Positions 27,844 through 35,981 of a DNA stretch of 63,319 nt are shown here, piece after piece (position 1 is the first letter of the stretch; each line of letters begins with the position of its first letter). Source of the stretch: Ilumatobacteraceae bacterium (GTDB lineage: Bacteria; Actinomycetota; Acidimicrobiia; Acidimicrobiales; Ilumatobacteraceae); contig JAFMJR010000003.1 in the NCBI GenBank assembly GCA_017853385.1, positions 1-63,319 on the forward strand, given 5' to 3'. Both the position numbers and the translations under genes were made by a program. Under the pieces are notes generated by a model. That model was not told the origin of the DNA and did no database searches. It worked only from the letters and a program-made list of their open reading frames with translations.

Positions 27844-28452
27844 TTACGATGTGACAAGCATTTTGTAATCGTCAAACGTAACTGGAATTCCCGCTCCAGC
27901 AATGTCTCCTCGTCCACGTGGTACGCCAATTGGTTTGCCAGCAACGCTGAATGTCACTTGTCCAATACCAGGTTGGCTGGTAAGAGTGAGCACAATTTGC
28001 GCAATCGCAAGTCGCTGTTCGCTTGGTTTGACTAGATCTAGATATCCACGCTTTGCGTTGACATTGGCAACACCGCCGTCAACTTCCACAGTTGCTGAAA
28101 AATTTGTGGGAAGCAATGTAGTGACACGTGTGTGTGCTGGGTCGGGTAACCCGGCGATGAGCGCGGCAAAAACAGCTTGAGGGTCTGTTGGGGATGGAAT
28201 TTCAAGCCGAACTCGAACCATCCCAGCAGATTTAATGAAATAAAAGTCGGCCTGCTCGTAAGCGGCTCCAGCAATGGTTGTTTGGACTGCATATGGAATG
28301 GTCGTAGCGGGAATTGTCGTTTCAGGAGAATTCAGATCAAACGGAATGCTGTTTGGATTCACTTCAACAAATTCACCTGATTTTGGAACAGCGCAAGACG
28401 CCGTGACGCTTGCAAGAGCTACAACGAAAACCGACAACTTTGCAGATTTCAT
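27844..28452 (-). CDS. Lipoprotein with GerMN (LpqB-like) domain
   Basis: Signal with lipobox-like SVTASC; FYFIKSAGMVRVRLEIPSPTDPQAVFAALIAGLPDP; follows the histidine kinase. Confidence 0.75.
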   Translation of the reverse strand: MKSAKLSVFVVALASVTASCAVPKSGEFVEVNPNSIPFDLNSPETTIPATTIPYAVQTTIAGAAYEQADFYFIKSAGMVRVRLEIPSPTDPQAVFAALIAGLPDPAHTRVTTLLPTNFSATVEVDGGVANVNAKRGYLDLVKPSEQRLAIAQIVLTLTSQPGIGQVTFSVAGKPIGVPRGRGDIAGAGIPVTFDDYKMLVTS

Positions 28453-29870
28453 GAGACTGGTCCAATTTTAGGAAACGTGAAAGAAAATACGGCCCCACCC
28501 TCTGGAGAGCTGTCAACTGTCACCGCGCCGTTCATTGCACGAGCGTGTTCTTGCACGATTGCAAGTCCTAGTCCACTGCCCGTGCTGTTTCGCGATGCCG
28601 TGCCGCGAGCGAAACGATTAAAGATGTTATTTCGCTCGCTAGCCGCAATACCGGGGCCAGAGTCGTGAACCGAAATAACAAATGTCTCATTGTTGAGGAC
28701 TAGTGAAACGCGATTTGCGCCTCCTGCGTGGTCGCGCGCATTTTCAAGCAAATTGACTAGCACGCGTTCTATTCGCCGACGATCAAGTAGGCACTCATCT
28801 TCTCCTGCGGTTTCTCCATCGCTTGAAGCCACAGAAGATCGATATTCAATATTCCCAAATCCATAGCGGTTCATTATTCGCACAATGAGATCATTGAGGC
28901 GAACTATTTCGTTTTCAGATTCTTCTGCTTGTGCATCTAAACGAGATAACTCAAGTAAGTCCAGAACGGTTCGATCAAAACGTTCAATTTGCTTTTTCAT
29001 AATGTCAATAGCTTGTTGATTGCGTTCCGAAAACTCTGATCTGCGAGCGATCAGTACTTCCGAGGCTGCTGCAAGTGCAGTAACGGGTGATCGCAATTCA
29101 TGGCTGACGTCACTCGCAAAGCGTTGCTCTCGTTCAATTCTCTCTTGAACAGCGTTAGCCATTTCGTTAAATGAAGTGACTAATTGTTGAAGATCCGCAT
29201 CGTCTTCATGGTCTAGACGTGTGTCAAGTCCACCAGTCGCAATTTTGTTGGCAGCTAGAGCCACTCGAGTTAGCGGCCGCAGAACATTTTGGCTCATAGA
29301 GAATCCAAGCACACCTGCGGCACCGGTAATGAGAACTACACCAATGATCAACGTAATTTGAATTGTGCGAAGTGTGTTTTCTACATCTGACACTGGAAAG
29401 GCTTCAAAGTAATGAATGCCAATAGATGGAACTGCAACACCAATTGCCTCGTACGGTTTTCCCTCAAAGACAAAGCGTTGACGCCCAGTTCGATTATTGA
29501 GCGTTTCGGAAAGTAGCTCTGGGGGAAGATTCGATTGAGTGAATCTCAAAGGATCTTGCGCGTAGTACAGCTCTCCCTTCCCAGGGCGTGCATCGATCTG
29601 TACAACAGCGAATCCATCTTGTTCCGTGCGAATTTGGGTAATGAGTTCAGCGACGTTGGTTCCGTCGGTTTCTACGAAACTGCGCATCAGTTGCGCATTG
29701 TTGAAAGCCTGTCGCTGTGCAACTTCAGAACGTTGACCTAATAGATATGAACGAGTGCTTGCAAAGGTGACAATGCTCAGTGCGACTGCGGCGGCGAAAG
29801 CTGCGAGACCAAAAAACAGAACCATTCGTTGACGGATGCTGAGTCGTAATGGCAGGGAGGACCTTGGCAC
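28449..29870 (-). CDS. Membrane sensor histidine kinase (MtrB-like)
   Basis: HAMP region, FASDVSHELRSPVTALAAASEVL H-box, NLLENARDHAGGANRV, DSGPGIAASERNNIFNRFARG. Likely GTG start at 29870. Confidence 0.88.
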   Translation of the reverse strand: MPRSSLPLRLSIRQRMVLFFGLAAFAAAVALSIVTFASTRSYLLGQRSEVAQRQAFNNAQLMRSFVETDGTNVAELITQIRTEQDGFAVVQIDARPGKGELYYAQDPLRFTQSNLPPELLSETLNNRTGRQRFVFEGKPYEAIGVAVPSIGIHYFEAFPVSDVENTLRTIQITLIIGVVLITGAAGVLGFSMSQNVLRPLTRVALAANKIATGGLDTRLDHEDDADLQQLVTSFNEMANAVQERIEREQRFASDVSHELRSPVTALAAASEVLIARRSEFSERNQQAIDIMKKQIERFDRTVLDLLELSRLDAQAEESENEIVRLNDLIVRIMNRYGFGNIEYRSSVASSDGETAGEDECLLDRRRIERVLVNLLENARDHAGGANRVSLVLNNETFVISVHDSGPGIAASERNNIFNRFARGTASRNSTGSGLGLAIVQEHARAMNGAVTVDSSPEGGAVFSFTFPKIGPVS

Positions 29871-29902
29871 TGTTACAGCATGGCAGTAAATAGGTGAGAC
29901 CG

Positions 29903-29945
29903 GAACCGGCGGGACCCAAGGGGGAGCATGAGTGCCCGCCGGTTC
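29903..29945. repeat. Perfect 11-bp inverted repeat GAACCGGCGGG / CCCGCCGGTTC with 21-nt loop
   Basis: Left arm 29903-29913, right arm 29935-29945, in the intergenic region between the divergent kinase and response regulator genes. Confidence 0.85.
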
Positions 29946-30040
29946 GATAGGGCAAATTCTGCTCGGTGAATGTGACAAAACCCGTGAATTTGTGTGCGTT
30001 TTATGTAACAATTTCGCAAAATCGGGCAGACTTCTAGAGC

Positions 30041-30733
30041 ATGTTCACGCTGTTGTTTGTGGAAGATGATGAATCCATCCGCACCGCATTACGCCTTGCC
30101 TTGGAAGATGAGGGATACAACGTGGTTGAGGCTGCAGACGGAGAATCTGGAATAGCCCTGTTTAACCAGATCGCGCCAGATTTAGTGCTGTTAGATCTAA
30201 GGCTTCCAGACATTTCTGGCTTTGAGGTTTGCCGTGCTTTGCGTCGCACAAGCATCGTTCCCATCATCATGGTTACTGCACAAACAGACACGACCGATTT
30301 GGTTAATGGATTTGATGCAGGTGCAGATGACTATGTGACTAAGCCAGTCGTGCCAAAAGAGTTAACGGCGCGAGTAAGGGCTGCATTACGTAGAACTCAG
30401 TCCAACGAGTCTTCCATTTCAGCCAATAAATCATTGAGCAAAATTGGCGACATTGAAATTGATCGCACATCAAGCATCGTGCGAAAAGGTAGCGCTGAGA
30501 TTTCACTTACAAAAACGGAATATCGGTTGCTTATTGAATTCGCAGATCATCCAGGAATGGTGTTGTCGCGCGACCAACTGCTGGAGCGGGTATGGGGTTA
30601 TGAATATCTTGGCGACTCTCGTCTTGTTGATGCACACGTTCGCAGGCTGCGCGTAAAAATTGAAACTCTTCCAGAAGAACCACAAATGATCGTGACGGTT
30701 CGAGGGATGGGTTATCGACTTATTCCGCAATGA
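30041..30733 (+). CDS. OmpR/PhoB-family response regulator (MtrA-like)
   Basis: FTLLFVEDDESIRTALRLALEDEGY...LVLLDLRLPDISGFEVCRAL...DDYVTKP; C-terminal wHTH ...VDAHVRRLRVKIE. Confidence 0.9.
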   Translation: MFTLLFVEDDESIRTALRLALEDEGYNVVEAADGESGIALFNQIAPDLVLLDLRLPDISGFEVCRALRRTSIVPIIMVTAQTDTTDLVNGFDAGADDYVTKPVVPKELTARVRAALRRTQSNESSISANKSLSKIGDIEIDRTSSIVRKGSAEISLTKTEYRLLIEFADHPGMVLSRDQLLERVWGYEYLGDSRLVDAHVRRLRVKIETLPEEPQMIVTVRGMGYRLIPQ

Positions 30734-30738
30734 AAAAA

Positions 30739-32637
30739 TTATTTTGAAGCAAAGAAGTTGGCTACATCGTCAAATTGAATGGTGCGCTTCATTGGGGGAA
30801 GAGTAGATACAAGCTGCTTTCCGTATCCCTTTGTGGCTAGTCGCGGATCCAGAATTGCAACTACTCCAGAATCTTTTCTCGACCTAATGAGACGTCCTGC
30901 CGCTTGGGCCAATTGTGTTGCAGCAAGTGGAATATCAATTTCGTTAAATGCACTTCTACCTACCTCGTCGCGACGCGCACTCAAGAGAGGGTCGTCGGGC
31001 CGAGGAAACGGAATTTTGTCGATGATGACAAGGCTCAATGTTTGGCCAGGTACATCGACGCCTTGGAAAAAACCCGCTGTTGCAAATAGGCAGGAGGATT
31101 CTTCCTGTGCAAATGCATCCACCAGTGCCATCTTTGGTAGGTCGTCCTGTCTCCAAATTTTGAATTCAAGTCGCCTAGCCATTTCGTCGGCAGCCTGGTG
31201 CATTGCGCGATAAGTAGTGAAGAGTGCAAGGGTTCTTCCGTTTGCAGCATTGATGAGATGCTCAATTTCATCCAGTACGGCTTCATCGCGTCGCGGATCA
31301 TTTGGCGCTGGTAAGTGTTTTGCGCAATACAACACCGCAGAATTTTCGTAATCAAAAGGACTTCCAACGTCAATCGAGTCAATTTCGTCGTCGGTGAGCC
31401 CGATTCGTGCTGGCAGCGCTAGTGGGATTGTGGCGCTAGCAAGAATTGCCGTGCGCTTAGACCAAATTCCCTCACGCAATGAAGGGCCTACGTTGAGCGG
31501 TGCAAGTTCAAGGGTTGGCCGATCTTTCGAACCACTCACAAAAGCAACGGTGCGCGAGCCAGCGGTTAAGGAGCCGTCTATTACCTCTACAAGCCGAGTG
31601 CTCAGTGTTTGGCCGCGCAAAATTCGTTGCTTGGCAGATTCGTCAGAAGTGTTGACGGCTCGCAAACCTGCAATGGCCTCATCAAGTTTGAGTCGCAGAC
31701 GATTGAGCACATCTTGAATGTCATCTGGCAGAGGGAGAGGAATGCGCTTATCAAGGTGTTGCGCAATGAGTCCACCGAATTCGTTGCCAATCTGTTGAAG
31801 CGACCCGGACATCGCATCATCGCGAACAATCGCGCGTAGCGCACTATTGACATGGTTGATGCTTCCAGGGCTTATCGACATGCTCACTGATGAACTCATG
31901 ACATCTTCAAGCTGATGTGCCTCATCAAAAATGACGACTTCGTGTTCCGGGAGTAATGCGCCATCGGTTGCGACGTCTAGACCATAAATATGTGTATTGA
32001 CAACTACCACGTCAGCGACTGAAGCAAAGTCACGCGCGCGTTCGGCGAAGCACACATCTCCTGAAGGGCACCGACTTGCACCGGGACACTCATCGCTACC
32101 GATGCTGACTTGTTTCCATGCCATGTCGCGTGGAGTCCACGTTAAATCTCCAGCGTCACCAGTGGAAGTGTCTTCCGACCATTTCACCAACTTGTCAATG
32201 TCGCTTTGAACCTGAGGAGAGAATTCATCTAGATCGAGCTTGTGGTGTTTAGGTTCTTGAATTTCAGAGATTCGCTGGGCGCAAAGATAATTATTTCGAC
32301 CCTTCAGCACGGCCCAATCAATTGATCTACCGATTATGGGTTCTAATGCACTAGCAAGAAGTGGTAAATCGTGTTTTGCTAATTGATCTTGCAACGCTTT
32401 TGTGTATGTGGAGACCACAACACGCTTGCCAGAATTGATGGCTGGTACCAAATACCCAAGGGTTTTGCCAGTGCCTGTGCCAGCTTGAACAATGAGGTGT
32501 CGTTTATTTTCAATTGCTTGCGATATGGCTTCAGCCATAGCTATTTGTCCAGATCTCTGCTCTACGTTTGGCAGAGTGTCAATTACTGATTGCAGCAATG
32601 AAGCAACATCATGCTGATGGTGGTTTTCAACTCCCAT
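30739..32637 (-). CDS. dinG: DinG-family ATP-dependent DNA helicase
   Basis: LIVQAGTGTGKTLGYLVPAI...VVIFDEAHQLEDVMS...AAGRLIRSRKDSGVVAILD; four-Cys region CAQR...CPGASRCPSGDVCFAE. Confidence 0.9.
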   Translation of the reverse strand: MGVENHHQHDVASLLQSVIDTLPNVEQRSGQIAMAEAISQAIENKRHLIVQAGTGTGKTLGYLVPAINSGKRVVVSTYTKALQDQLAKHDLPLLASALEPIIGRSIDWAVLKGRNNYLCAQRISEIQEPKHHKLDLDEFSPQVQSDIDKLVKWSEDTSTGDAGDLTWTPRDMAWKQVSIGSDECPGASRCPSGDVCFAERARDFASVADVVVVNTHIYGLDVATDGALLPEHEVVIFDEAHQLEDVMSSSVSMSISPGSINHVNSALRAIVRDDAMSGSLQQIGNEFGGLIAQHLDKRIPLPLPDDIQDVLNRLRLKLDEAIAGLRAVNTSDESAKQRILRGQTLSTRLVEVIDGSLTAGSRTVAFVSGSKDRPTLELAPLNVGPSLREGIWSKRTAILASATIPLALPARIGLTDDEIDSIDVGSPFDYENSAVLYCAKHLPAPNDPRRDEAVLDEIEHLINAANGRTLALFTTYRAMHQAADEMARRLEFKIWRQDDLPKMALVDAFAQEESSCLFATAGFFQGVDVPGQTLSLVIIDKIPFPRPDDPLLSARRDEVGRSAFNEIDIPLAATQLAQAAGRLIRSRKDSGVVAILDPRLATKGYGKQLVSTLPPMKRTIQFDDVANFFASK

Positions 32638-33319
32638 TGGTCAACTTGATGGCGTTATCAATCTCATGTTCATCAAAATCTGGCCAAGTGCGTTCGGTGA
32701 AGTAGACCTTTGCTCCACAAATTTGCCACAACATGAAATTAGAAATACGTGATTCCCCCGATGTGCGAACAACAACGTCTACTGGTGGCAAGTCGGGTGC
32801 GTACAAATTTTGGTTAATTAGATCCCGCGTCACCTGTGACGGAATTCTTGAATGATTGCGTGCTCGATCCGCAGCTCGAAGAAGCTCTGCACGACTGCCA
32901 TAATCAAATGCAACGGTAAGCACCATTCCTGTGTTGTGTGCCGTGTCGGCAATTGCTTGTTCAATAGCACGTTGGATAAATCCTGGAGTCTTGGACCCTG
33001 GCTCGTTAAACGGTCTGCCGATCCATTGAATTCGCACATTGTTGGCGTTGAGTTCTTCTATGCGACCAAAGAGGCGTTTGTGAAGCGACAGGATGTGTTT
33101 TACCTCGGCGGGTGGTCGCACCCAGTTTTCTGTTGAAAAGCCAAAGACGGTTAGGTGACTTACATTGCGCTTTGAGCAAACTCGCACAACTTCTGCAAGA
33201 TTTTCTTCACCGGCCGTATGCCCTTCTGTGCGGGGAAGACCGCGACGTTTAGCCCAACGACCATTGCCGTCCATAATGCAGGCGATGTGTACCGAGCGGG
33301 TACTTGCCTGCAAATCCAT
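32627..33319 (-). CDS. uppS: cis-Prenyltransferase (UppS-like), C-terminally short
   Basis: HIACIMDGNGRWAKRRGLPRTEGHTAG, LTVFGFSTENWVRP, VVRTSGESRISNFMLWQ, YFTERTWPDFDEHEIDNAIKLTNGS*; no C-terminal RxRRFGG segment. Confidence 0.93.
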   Translation of the reverse strand: MDLQASTRSVHIACIMDGNGRWAKRRGLPRTEGHTAGEENLAEVVRVCSKRNVSHLTVFGFSTENWVRPPAEVKHILSLHKRLFGRIEELNANNVRIQWIGRPFNEPGSKTPGFIQRAIEQAIADTAHNTGMVLTVAFDYGSRAELLRAADRARNHSRIPSQVTRDLINQNLYAPDLPPVDVVVRTSGESRISNFMLWQICGAKVYFTERTWPDFDEHEIDNAIKLTNGS

Positions 33320-33367
33320 GCGGACACCTTACTGAAATTGGCTACGACGGCGTGCGACAATGGTGGC

Positions 33368-33937
33368 GTGGGAATTGAATCAACACTCCATCACGTGCTT
33401 GTTGTTGGTGGAGGAGTTGAGCAATGGGAATCACTCAGTGTCGAAGAATGGCAAAAGTATTTAGCGGTGCTCCGAAATGCTGTTGAGCATGTTGGGGCGA
33501 AGTGGCTGACGATTTACCCGCATTCTGGTGTGACCAAATCAATGAGCTCCGAGGATCTCTTGCAGAGAATCGCAAATTCTGTAAGTGGTGTTGTGAGCGA
33601 GAGCAAGGTGATCGTGCAAGGCGCCACGACGATCGTTTTTGATGCTTGTGCAGACGGCCGTGACAGGTTTGTGCGTGCAGTGAATGCACTTGGTGATGGA
33701 AACATCAAGGAAGAGAAACTGGCGCAAGCGATTCTGCACCCAGCGATTGGTGAACCCGATCTTGTAGTGATATTTGGTGCACCCGATCAATTGCCAAAGT
33801 CGCTTGTCTGGGAGTTGGCGTACAGCGAGTTGGTGTTTTTACAAACTCAGTGGCCGCAATGTAACAGCGAAGATATTGAACTTGCGATAAACGATTTTCA
33901 GCGTCGTGATCGTCGATTTGGCGGTGTTGATTCATGA
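33368..33937 (+). CDS. Divergent cis-prenyltransferase paralog, predicted non-catalytic (NgBR-like)
   Basis: HHVLVVGGGVEQWESLSVEEWQKYLAVLRNAVEHVGAKWLTIYPHSG aligns by eye to the UppS N-terminus without MDGNGRW; EPDLVVIFGAPDQLPKSLVWELAYSELVFLQTQWPQCNSEDIELAINDFQRRDRRFGGVDS aligns to the UppS C-terminus. In-frame GTG at 33368 is the likely start. Confidence 0.75.
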   Translation: MGIESTLHHVLVVGGGVEQWESLSVEEWQKYLAVLRNAVEHVGAKWLTIYPHSGVTKSMSSEDLLQRIANSVSGVVSESKVIVQGATTIVFDACADGRDRFVRAVNALGDGNIKEEKLAQAILHPAIGEPDLVVIFGAPDQLPKSLVWELAYSELVFLQTQWPQCNSEDIELAINDFQRRDRRFGGVDS

Positions 33938-34653
33938 CGCTGTATCGCGATAAAGGAATAGTCCTTCGTAGTTACAAGTTGGGCGAGTCTGACCGAATTG
34001 TTGTTGTGATGACTGAAAACCATGGCAAGGTTCGTGCAGTCGCCAAAGGAATTCGCAAAACAAAGTCGAAAATAGGTGCTCGACTCGAACCAATGAGTCA
34101 TGTTGACATTCAGCTGTATCGGGGTAGAGAACTCGACACCGTTTCACAGGTGGAACTCATTGATTCATCTGCGCGACTGCACAACAAGTTGGATAAGTTG
34201 ACCCAAGGTATGTCAATGCTTGAAGCAGTTGACCAAATTGCCGAAGATCGCGAACCGTCTCCGCATCTGTATCGAATGCTGCAGGGAGCTCTCAATACGT
34301 TGATGGAGCAAGAGTCGCCAGTGATGCTTGCGGCCTTTTACTGGAAATTGCTTGCTGCGGAGGGGGTGCGGCCACAGGTGGATGCTTGTGTTGGCTGCGA
34401 TGCTCGTTCTGAATTGGTTGCCTTCGACATCTTCCACGGCGGCGTGCAGTGTCGCTCATGTCGGACTGGAATCTCCATTTCGGTATCGGCGCTTGAATTG
34501 TTGCAGCAGGTGCTTGGAGGTCAATTGATGAATGCATTGGCTCAACCAGAATCGCCAGCAAGTTTTGAGATCTCTCAGTTAGCAACGCAAGCGATGGAGC
34601 ACCACATAGAACGAAGACTCCGTTCAGTGGCAATGTTCAGCCCCCGTCACTAG
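33934..34653 (+). CDS. recO: DNA repair protein RecO
   Basis: MTLYRDKGIVLRSYKLGESDRIVVVMTENHGKVRAVAKGIRKTKSKIGARLEPMSHVDIQLY; CVGC...CRSC zinc motif. Confidence 0.93.
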   Translation: MTLYRDKGIVLRSYKLGESDRIVVVMTENHGKVRAVAKGIRKTKSKIGARLEPMSHVDIQLYRGRELDTVSQVELIDSSARLHNKLDKLTQGMSMLEAVDQIAEDREPSPHLYRMLQGALNTLMEQESPVMLAAFYWKLLAAEGVRPQVDACVGCDARSELVAFDIFHGGVQCRSCRTGISISVSALELLQQVLGGQLMNALAQPESPASFEISQLATQAMEHHIERRLRSVAMFSPRH

Positions 34654-34673: not shown

Positions 34674-35981
34674 ATGCCTGCGAGTGATCTAGAGCAAATT
34701 GTCAACCTCTGTAAGCGCCGTGGGTTTGTGTATCCAAGTGCCGAGATTTACGGAGGGTTCCGATCTTCGTATGACTACGGCCCGCTTGGGTCGTTAATGC
34801 TGCGAAACGTAAAAGATGCCTGGGTGCGCAGCATGGTTCAGCAGCGCGACGATGTGGTGCTTATTGACGCCGCAATCCTTGGTCCACCTCAAGTATTTGA
34901 AGCAAGTGGACATCTTGCCAATTTCAGTGATCCGTTAGTTGACTGCACGGTGTGTAAGAAGCGCTTTCGTGAAGATCAGCTAGATGCGCGCGACTGCCCA
35001 CAAAAAATGAAGGGTTGCAATTTCACTGAAGCCCGTGCATTCAATTTGATGTTTCAAACACATGCAGGCCCGGTTGAGGGCGAAGGCGCAACTGTGTATA
35101 TGCGTCCAGAAACTGCGCAAGGCATGTTCGTCAACTTTGCCAATGTGCTGCAAACCTCTCGCAAGAAGCCACCATTTGGCATTGCCCAGGTTGGTAAGAG
35201 TTTCCGCAACGAAATCACACCAGGCAACTTCATATTCCGAACGCGCGAATTCGAGCAGATGGAAATGGAATTTTTTGTTCCACCAGCAGAAAGTGCAAAG
35301 TGGTACGAATATTGGTGCGAGAACCGCATGCAGTGGTACATCGACTTGGGTATACCAGCAGACATGTTGAGGCTTCGCGCCCACGATGCAGACGAGCTAT
35401 CACATTATTCAAGTGGTACCAGCGACATTGAGTTCAAATTTCCTTGGGGTTGGGGAGAGCTTGAAGGTATTGCGCAGCGAACCAATTTCGATCTCAATCG
35501 ACATGCAGAATTCTCAAAGCAAAAGCTCGATTATTTCGATCAAGCAACGAACGAGCGTTACGTGCCTTATGTTGTCGAACCTGCTGCAGGTGCTAATCGC
35601 ACGATGGCTGCGTTTTTATTGGCCGCTTATGACGAAGATGTTGTCAACGATGAGCCAAGAACTGTTCTGCGTCTGCACCCACGCTTGGCGCCGTATCAAA
35701 TTGCGATTCTTCCTCTGTCAAAGAAAGATTCGTTAACGCCTCTTGCAGATTCCATATTCAGTCGTCTGAGCAAGCGCTACTACTGCGACTACGACGAAAC
35801 TCAAGCAATTGGCCGCCGCTACCGCCGCCAAGACGAAATTGGTACTCCGTACTGCATTACCGTTGACTTTGATTCGCTTGAAGATGGGCAGGTAACCATT
35901 CGCGAGCGCGACACGACACAGCAAGAGCGTGTAAGCATTGATCAATTGGAAGTAATTCTCGAACAAAAATTGGGTTTCTAA
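34674..35981 (+). CDS. glyS: Glycyl-tRNA synthetase (class II)
   Basis: LCKRRGFVYPSAEIYGGFRSSYDYGPLGSLMLRNVKDAWVR...MRPETAQGMFVNF...GKSFRNEITPGNFIFRTREFEQMEMEFF. Confidence 0.95.
   Translation: MPASDLEQIVNLCKRRGFVYPSAEIYGGFRSSYDYGPLGSLMLRNVKDAWVRSMVQQRDDVVLIDAAILGPPQVFEASGHLANFSDPLVDCTVCKKRFREDQLDARDCPQKMKGCNFTEARAFNLMFQTHAGPVEGEGATVYMRPETAQGMFVNFANVLQTSRKKPPFGIAQVGKSFRNEITPGNFIFRTREFEQMEMEFFVPPAESAKWYEYWCENRMQWYIDLGIPADMLRLRAHDADELSHYSSGTSDIEFKFPWGWGELEGIAQRTNFDLNRHAEFSKQKLDYFDQATNERYVPYVVEPAAGANRTMAAFLLAAYDEDVVNDEPRTVLRLHPRLAPYQIAILPLSKKDSLTPLADSIFSRLSKRYYCDYDETQAIGRRYRRQDEIGTPYCITVDFDSLEDGQVTIRERDTTQQERVSIDQLEVILEQKLGF

Follow-up and report, generated by a model that had tools for sequence, protein, structure and literature searches.

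A probable heteromeric undecaprenyl diphosphate synthase encoded by two divergent genes in Ilumatobacteraceae

In nearly all sampled genomes of Ilumatobacteraceae, two co-occurring genes replace the ordinary single gene for undecaprenyl diphosphate synthase (UppS): one retains the catalytic motifs but not the C-terminal RxG tail, whereas the other has kept the tail and lost the catalytic residues. Very probably, the products of the two genes are the catalytic and non-catalytic subunits of an undecaprenyl (or decaprenyl) diphosphate synthase that works only as a heteromer, with both the interaction and the activity being inferred. The pair was first seen in the window (that is, the whole analysed stretch of 63,319 nucleotides), where it lies between dinG and recO:

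30739–32637, minus strand: dinG helicase (Pfam Helicase_C_2), start codon overlapping the end of uppS; conserved flank
32627–33319, minus strand: uppS, predicted catalytic subunit, a UppS-type cis-prenyltransferase of 230 aa (PF01255 positions 1–209 of 219)
33320–33367, no strand: intergenic region of 48 bp between the two divergent starts
33368–33937, plus strand: partner, a degenerate cis-prenyltransferase of 189 aa from GTG (PF01255 positions 99–219)
33934–34653, plus strand: recO (Pfam RecO_N/RecO_C), ATG overlapping the partner stop (ATGA); flank kept in split and sister families
34674–35981, plus strand: glyS; conserved downstream flank

A tailless UppS and a degenerate partner that keeps the tail

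The original prediction held that the minus-strand UppS has its catalytic signatures, lacks the C-terminal RxG segment and stops over the dinG start with no remnant downstream, and all of this was confirmed. MDGNGRWA, FSTENW and RTSGESRISNF are present, and the match to PF01255 is strong (2.5e-67; 227.1 bits against a cut-off of 27), yet profile coverage ends at position 209 of 219, that is, without the RxG end. The translated reading frame terminates in WPDFDEHEIDNAIKLTNGS, lacking both the RxG tail and the Tyr/Glu pair that would follow SNFMLW. Its TGA (32627–32629) falls inside the dinG start region ATGGGAGTTGA, the dinG ATG being at 32637, and no in-frame tail remnant was present downstream of the stop in the window. 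Across 110 homologous copies searched in three frames for such a remnant, only seven regular-expression matches were returned, which is chance-like in GC-rich DNA. The catalytic residues showed no variation among 26 relatives. A single-chain AF2 model has the cis-prenyltransferase fold (pLDDT 89.2) with the chain stopping at its last helix (residues 217–228), and the top Foldseek matches are bacterial UppS structures (TM 0.82–0.86). The RxG is absent from all 91 complete catalytic copies in Ilumatobacteraceae, in which the chain ends within 16–28 residues, counting from the first residue of the WPD motif; the hallmark of a homodimeric UppS, an RxG in the catalytic chain itself, is thus unmet.

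The adjacent plus-strand gene had been read as a divergent UppS paralog with dead motifs and an intact RxG, probably starting at GTG 33368, and this reading also held. It matches PF01255 at profile positions 99–219 (6.5e-14; 52.4 bits against the same cut-off), VGGGVEQW, PHSGVTK and GAPDQLPKSLVWE align at the places of the UppS catalytic motifs, and the C-terminal end is NDFQRRDRRFGGVDS (RRDRRFGG). A start at ATG 33218 is conceivable but would overlap uppS, and the alignment of relatives favours the shorter GTG form. The single-chain AF2 model again has the cis-prenyltransferase fold (pLDDT 88.4), beginning at residue 9, and the top Foldseek match is E. coli UppS (TM about 0.61). Both halves therefore belong to the superfamily as judged by PF01255 scores above the curated cut-off together with UppS fold matches. 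All 99 complete partners end in RxRRFGG, and DGNGR, FSTEN and SNF were found in none of them. In one relative (G204:C8, locus L161, around 1950–2420), the partner is broken by N's and a TAG, more likely a scaffold gap than a real pseudogene.

The abrupt end of the short uppS reading frame at the dinG start could point to pseudogene truncation, a frameshift or an assembly artefact. This explanation is all but excluded, as the same end point recurs across independent assemblies, in 91 distinct sequences, no convincing remnant follows it and the catalytic residues are invariant. Chance or assembly error as the source of the pattern was ruled out by the 91 of 91 tailless catalytic copies taken with the 99 of 99 RxRRFGG partners.

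The two genes are divergent in all 110 pairs examined, and a simple promoter and terminator scan of the 48-bp intergenic region gave nothing, with no sigma-70-like promoter. Extra sequence lies between the divergent genes at a few loci (L079, L083 (about 2.3 kb), L113 and L116 (about 0.7 kb)), where both genes are retained. Between era and dinG, the window (27844–30733) carries genes for a Germane-domain lipoprotein, for a histidine kinase and for a divergent response regulator; this block recurs at split-family loci and was not observed at that position in those loci of sister families that were examined.

Partition of conserved positions between the two halves

Alignment columns whose conservation among full-length relatives was 90% or more were scored for retention in each half (threshold 0.9). 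Forty-eight were retained by the catalytic half only, 10 by the partner only, six by both and 13 by neither, a negative association between the halves (P=0.0025, or 0.004 with the threshold set to 0.5). The partner-only columns are Y152, E154, R180, R182, R183, G185, G43, G97, E115 and L132 (partner numbering), and thus include the pair Y152 and E154 together with the tail R180-x-R182-R183-F-G185-G. By alignment, Y152 and E154 correspond to Y211 and E213 of E. coli UppS, and E. coli E213 has been implicated in Mg/IPP binding. The Glu equivalent to E213 is present in 38 of 38 full-length enzymes and 99 of 99 partners, yet in merely 5 of 91 catalytic copies, which mostly have Lys, Ala or Arg. 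The catalytic half thus keeps the catalytic and the FPP/Mg-binding motifs and has lost the RxG tail and the Tyr/Glu pair after SNFLLW; in the partner, the catalytic residues are gone and the Tyr/Glu and RxG patches remain. The division of the Tyr/Glu patch had escaped the original prediction. Human DHDDS has a Cys at the E213 equivalent and NgBR a Glu there plus RLGK; therefore, the same two patches are divided in the human enzyme.

Many conserved positions of the catalytic half are shifted, among them L76I, F79L, L84F, F99W and N139D (window numbering). Such shifts, L76I and F99W for example, could be taken to support a role of the partner tail in chain length or substrate, in which the tail would serve to make a product that is longer or otherwise altered, and an essential, shorter prenol would still come from the short UppS by itself. 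Heteromers are also usually tied to longer chains (PMC7573591, PMC7839719). This reading is unlikely, since the product of the Methanosarcina mazei heteromer is C45–50 and not a long chain (PMC8131916), and no product-length measurement stands behind it.

Distribution and history of the locus

Of the 115 Ilumatobacteraceae genomes that are at least 85% complete, 112 belong to the pair type, so the co-occurrence looked for is borne out; the other three have a single full-length UppS and no partner. Three genomes showed one half only, and each has a contig end at the locus: the contig ends at 24434, just past the catalytic gene, in G236, starts at the partner in G035 and ends at the partner in G029. 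The prediction would have been refuted by a second canonical, RxG-bearing UppS in the genome, or by relatives carrying the partner alongside an RxG-bearing UppS. In the window's own genome (1.5 Mb in 122 contigs, about 90% complete), no PF01255 gene was found beyond the short uppS and the partner. A second canonical copy is likewise absent from relatives of the pair type; among these, the three genomes that consist of a single contig (G012, G019 and G038) have exactly two PF01255 genes each, again the short uppS and the partner. A partner beside an RxG-bearing UppS was found in no relative examined. The window's genome has three PF00953 (MraY-type) genes, and therefore a polyprenyl carrier should be needed.

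These observations bear on a second rival, in which the short UppS alone is a working homodimer and the partner, descended from the old uppS, has a separate role in regulation or scaffolding. In its favour, the RxG-less archaeal MM_0014 is active (PMC8131916) and DHDDS homodimers show weak activity (PMC7573591). It is nevertheless considered unlikely: the partner keeps exactly the patches lost by the catalytic half (99 of 99 copies), a pure scaffold has no need of RxRRFGG or of the Tyr/Glu pair, and the halves occur apart only at contig ends.

In a sample of 298 Actinomycetota genomes, 11 of them Ilumatobacteraceae, partner-profile scores were 184–248 bits within the family and did not exceed 102 outside it, where the matches are ordinary full-length UppS; no partner-scoring gene was found in the about 287 other genomes. 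Restriction to Ilumatobacteraceae is thus shown within the sampled Actinomycetota only, other phyla lying outside the survey. A peptide-pattern scan of a GTDB species collection returned 158 relatives; examination was limited to the 80 best. Eight loci (L061, L064, L065, L075, L079, L092, L094 and L130) carry the full Ilumatobacteraceae-type arrangement despite foreign record titles; with titles such as ‘Bifidobacterium breve', ‘Ferrithrix thermotolerans' and ‘Acidobacteria' on Ilumatobacteraceae-type contigs, these MAGs look mislabelled.

In the sister families of the order, the arrangement is mostly dinG on one strand, followed by full-length uppS, recO and glyS on the other. In split genomes, dinG and the short uppS lie on one strand and the partner, recO and glyS on the other in 71 of 80 named loci; of the remaining nine, three lack only dinG within the stretch available and six lack a visible uppS match (not checked singly). 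By this comparison of gene order, it is the partner that occupies the slot and strand of the ancestral uppS, between dinG and recO, rather than the catalytic gene, a point missed by the original prediction.

Other states exist in the order. G011 has the ancestral gene order with a full-length UppS; in genus g23, both split genes are missing, dinG lies directly next to recO, and the full-length UppS is encoded at another place. A g23-type replacement UppS, away from dinG and recO, was also found in G143 and G186, which represent two other families of the order. This full-length UppS is of a distinct type (SSEYRLSNFFPWHSTYAE, with a tail RRRRKG or RRRMG; L033 6556–7326 (G023), L034, L048 and L050), seen away from dinG–recO in genus g23 and the two other families. 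In g23 it adjoins an open reading frame read by eye as a trans-polyprenyl synthase.

In the UppS tree, the catalytic copies form one clade and the partner copies another. Neither a grouping of native UppS with the catalytic copies (AU P=0.77) nor one with the partners (P=0.87) was rejected, leaving undecided whether the second copy was a local duplicate or an import. A species tree from DinG, RecO and GlyS unites G011 and genus g23 in one clade. The AU test went against monophyly of the split genomes (P=0.035), though long branches are in play, and whether the G011/g23 clade is sister to all split genomes or nested among them is unresolved; its state may be pre-split or secondary, either being possible, and the species tree does not decide. 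The correlation of distances between the halves (rho 0.63) is uninformative, as shared species history would give the same. As inferred, the uppS native to the dinG–recO interval would have decayed into the partner, and a second, head-to-head uppS copy (local duplicate or import) would have kept catalysis and lost its tail.

A heteromeric reading and its relation to known systems

In the heteromeric model, the two halves would form a cis-prenyltransferase dimer with a single working active site. The partner C-terminus is predicted to cross the interface and complete the active site of the catalytic subunit in trans, because of homology to DHDDS/NgBR and to solved homodimers. Its tail would bind the IPP phosphate and aid Mg/pyrophosphate handling, and the inferred product would be the peptidoglycan carrier lipid. 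For human DHDDS/NgBR, trans action of the RxG is established; the C-terminal end of NgBR reaches across the interface, the S2 phosphate is held by the L291/G292 backbone, and R290 lies between the two substrate sites (PMC7573591). Transverse C-terminal contacts occur in homodimeric enzymes too (PMC7573591); the RxG Arg contacts Mg through water in several homodimers, and the RxG Gly nitrogen contacts the acceptor beta-phosphate in some (PMC8131916). The sequence hallmarks of the heteromeric class, an RxG-less catalytic subunit and a co-occurring, catalytically dead RxG homologue, are met.

The possible obligate heteromer of the original prediction is thereby supported by sequence evidence and remains an inference, without physical or enzymatic evidence and with the complex not modelled. 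Three points stand against it. The activity of MM_0014 shows for that enzyme that an absent tail alone is no proof of dependence or inactivity; the faster evolution of the partner (median identity among relatives 41%, versus 68% for the catalytic half) might also fit a looser role; and divergent, non-operonic genes do not guarantee 1:1 synthesis.

Bacterial cis-prenyltransferases are described as homodimeric (PMC7839719, PMC7573591), heteromeric ones being known from eukaryotes (PMC7573591, PMC7839719) and from M. mazei (PMC8131916). No bacterial heteromer was found in the open-access literature searched, which omits most subscription papers. A bolder inference, which we consider likely, is that this is the first bacterial obligate heteromeric UppS. 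In Ilumatobacteraceae, a native homodimeric enzyme would have been turned into a pseudoenzyme that donates RxG, next to a catalytic copy lacking it, with labour split as in the eukaryotic dolichol synthase by a convergence that extends to the same Glu and RxG patches. An essential enzyme and known antibacterial target seems, throughout an ecologically widespread family (freshwater and marine), to have become an obligate heteromer, and annotating the short gene as ‘UppS' overlooks a probable essential partner. As single-gene, split and replaced states all exist among living relatives, the evolution of the arrangement seen in disease-linked human DHDDS/NgBR becomes testable in small bacterial proteins.

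The pair resembles DHDDS/NgBR (Rer2/Nus1 in yeast; CPT/LEW1 in plants) in that the catalytic subunit lacks RxG, the E213-equivalent Glu is on the non-catalytic side and the partner, like NgBR, is a dead relative with RxG whose similarity lies mainly in the C-terminal half. Unlike their eukaryotic counterparts, the partner has no room for a membrane N-terminus and the catalytic chain none for the C-terminal helix-turn-helix of DHDDS. Both halves are nearer to bacterial UppS than to DHDDS/NgBR (178 versus 107 bits for the catalytic half and 81 versus 32 for the partner; phmmer/profile), and therefore their origin is probably independent. The pair would work in a DHDDS/NgBR-like manner and is likely not of that clade by descent, as judged by sequence scores and without a tree including eukaryotic sequences. 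MM_0618/MM_1083 of M. mazei, proposed to make a C45–50 glycosyl carrier lipid (Emi et al. 2019, as cited in PMC8131916), is a prokaryotic heteromer, though archaeal. With homodimeric UppS (E. coli UppS, Mtb Rv2361c and Thermobifida 7CPN), the pair shares the fold, the family, the catalytic residues kept in the catalytic half and the RRFGG tail of the partner; in those homodimeric undecaprenyl or decaprenyl diphosphate synthases one gene supplies all the residues, whereas in Ilumatobacteraceae two proteins each carry a subset.
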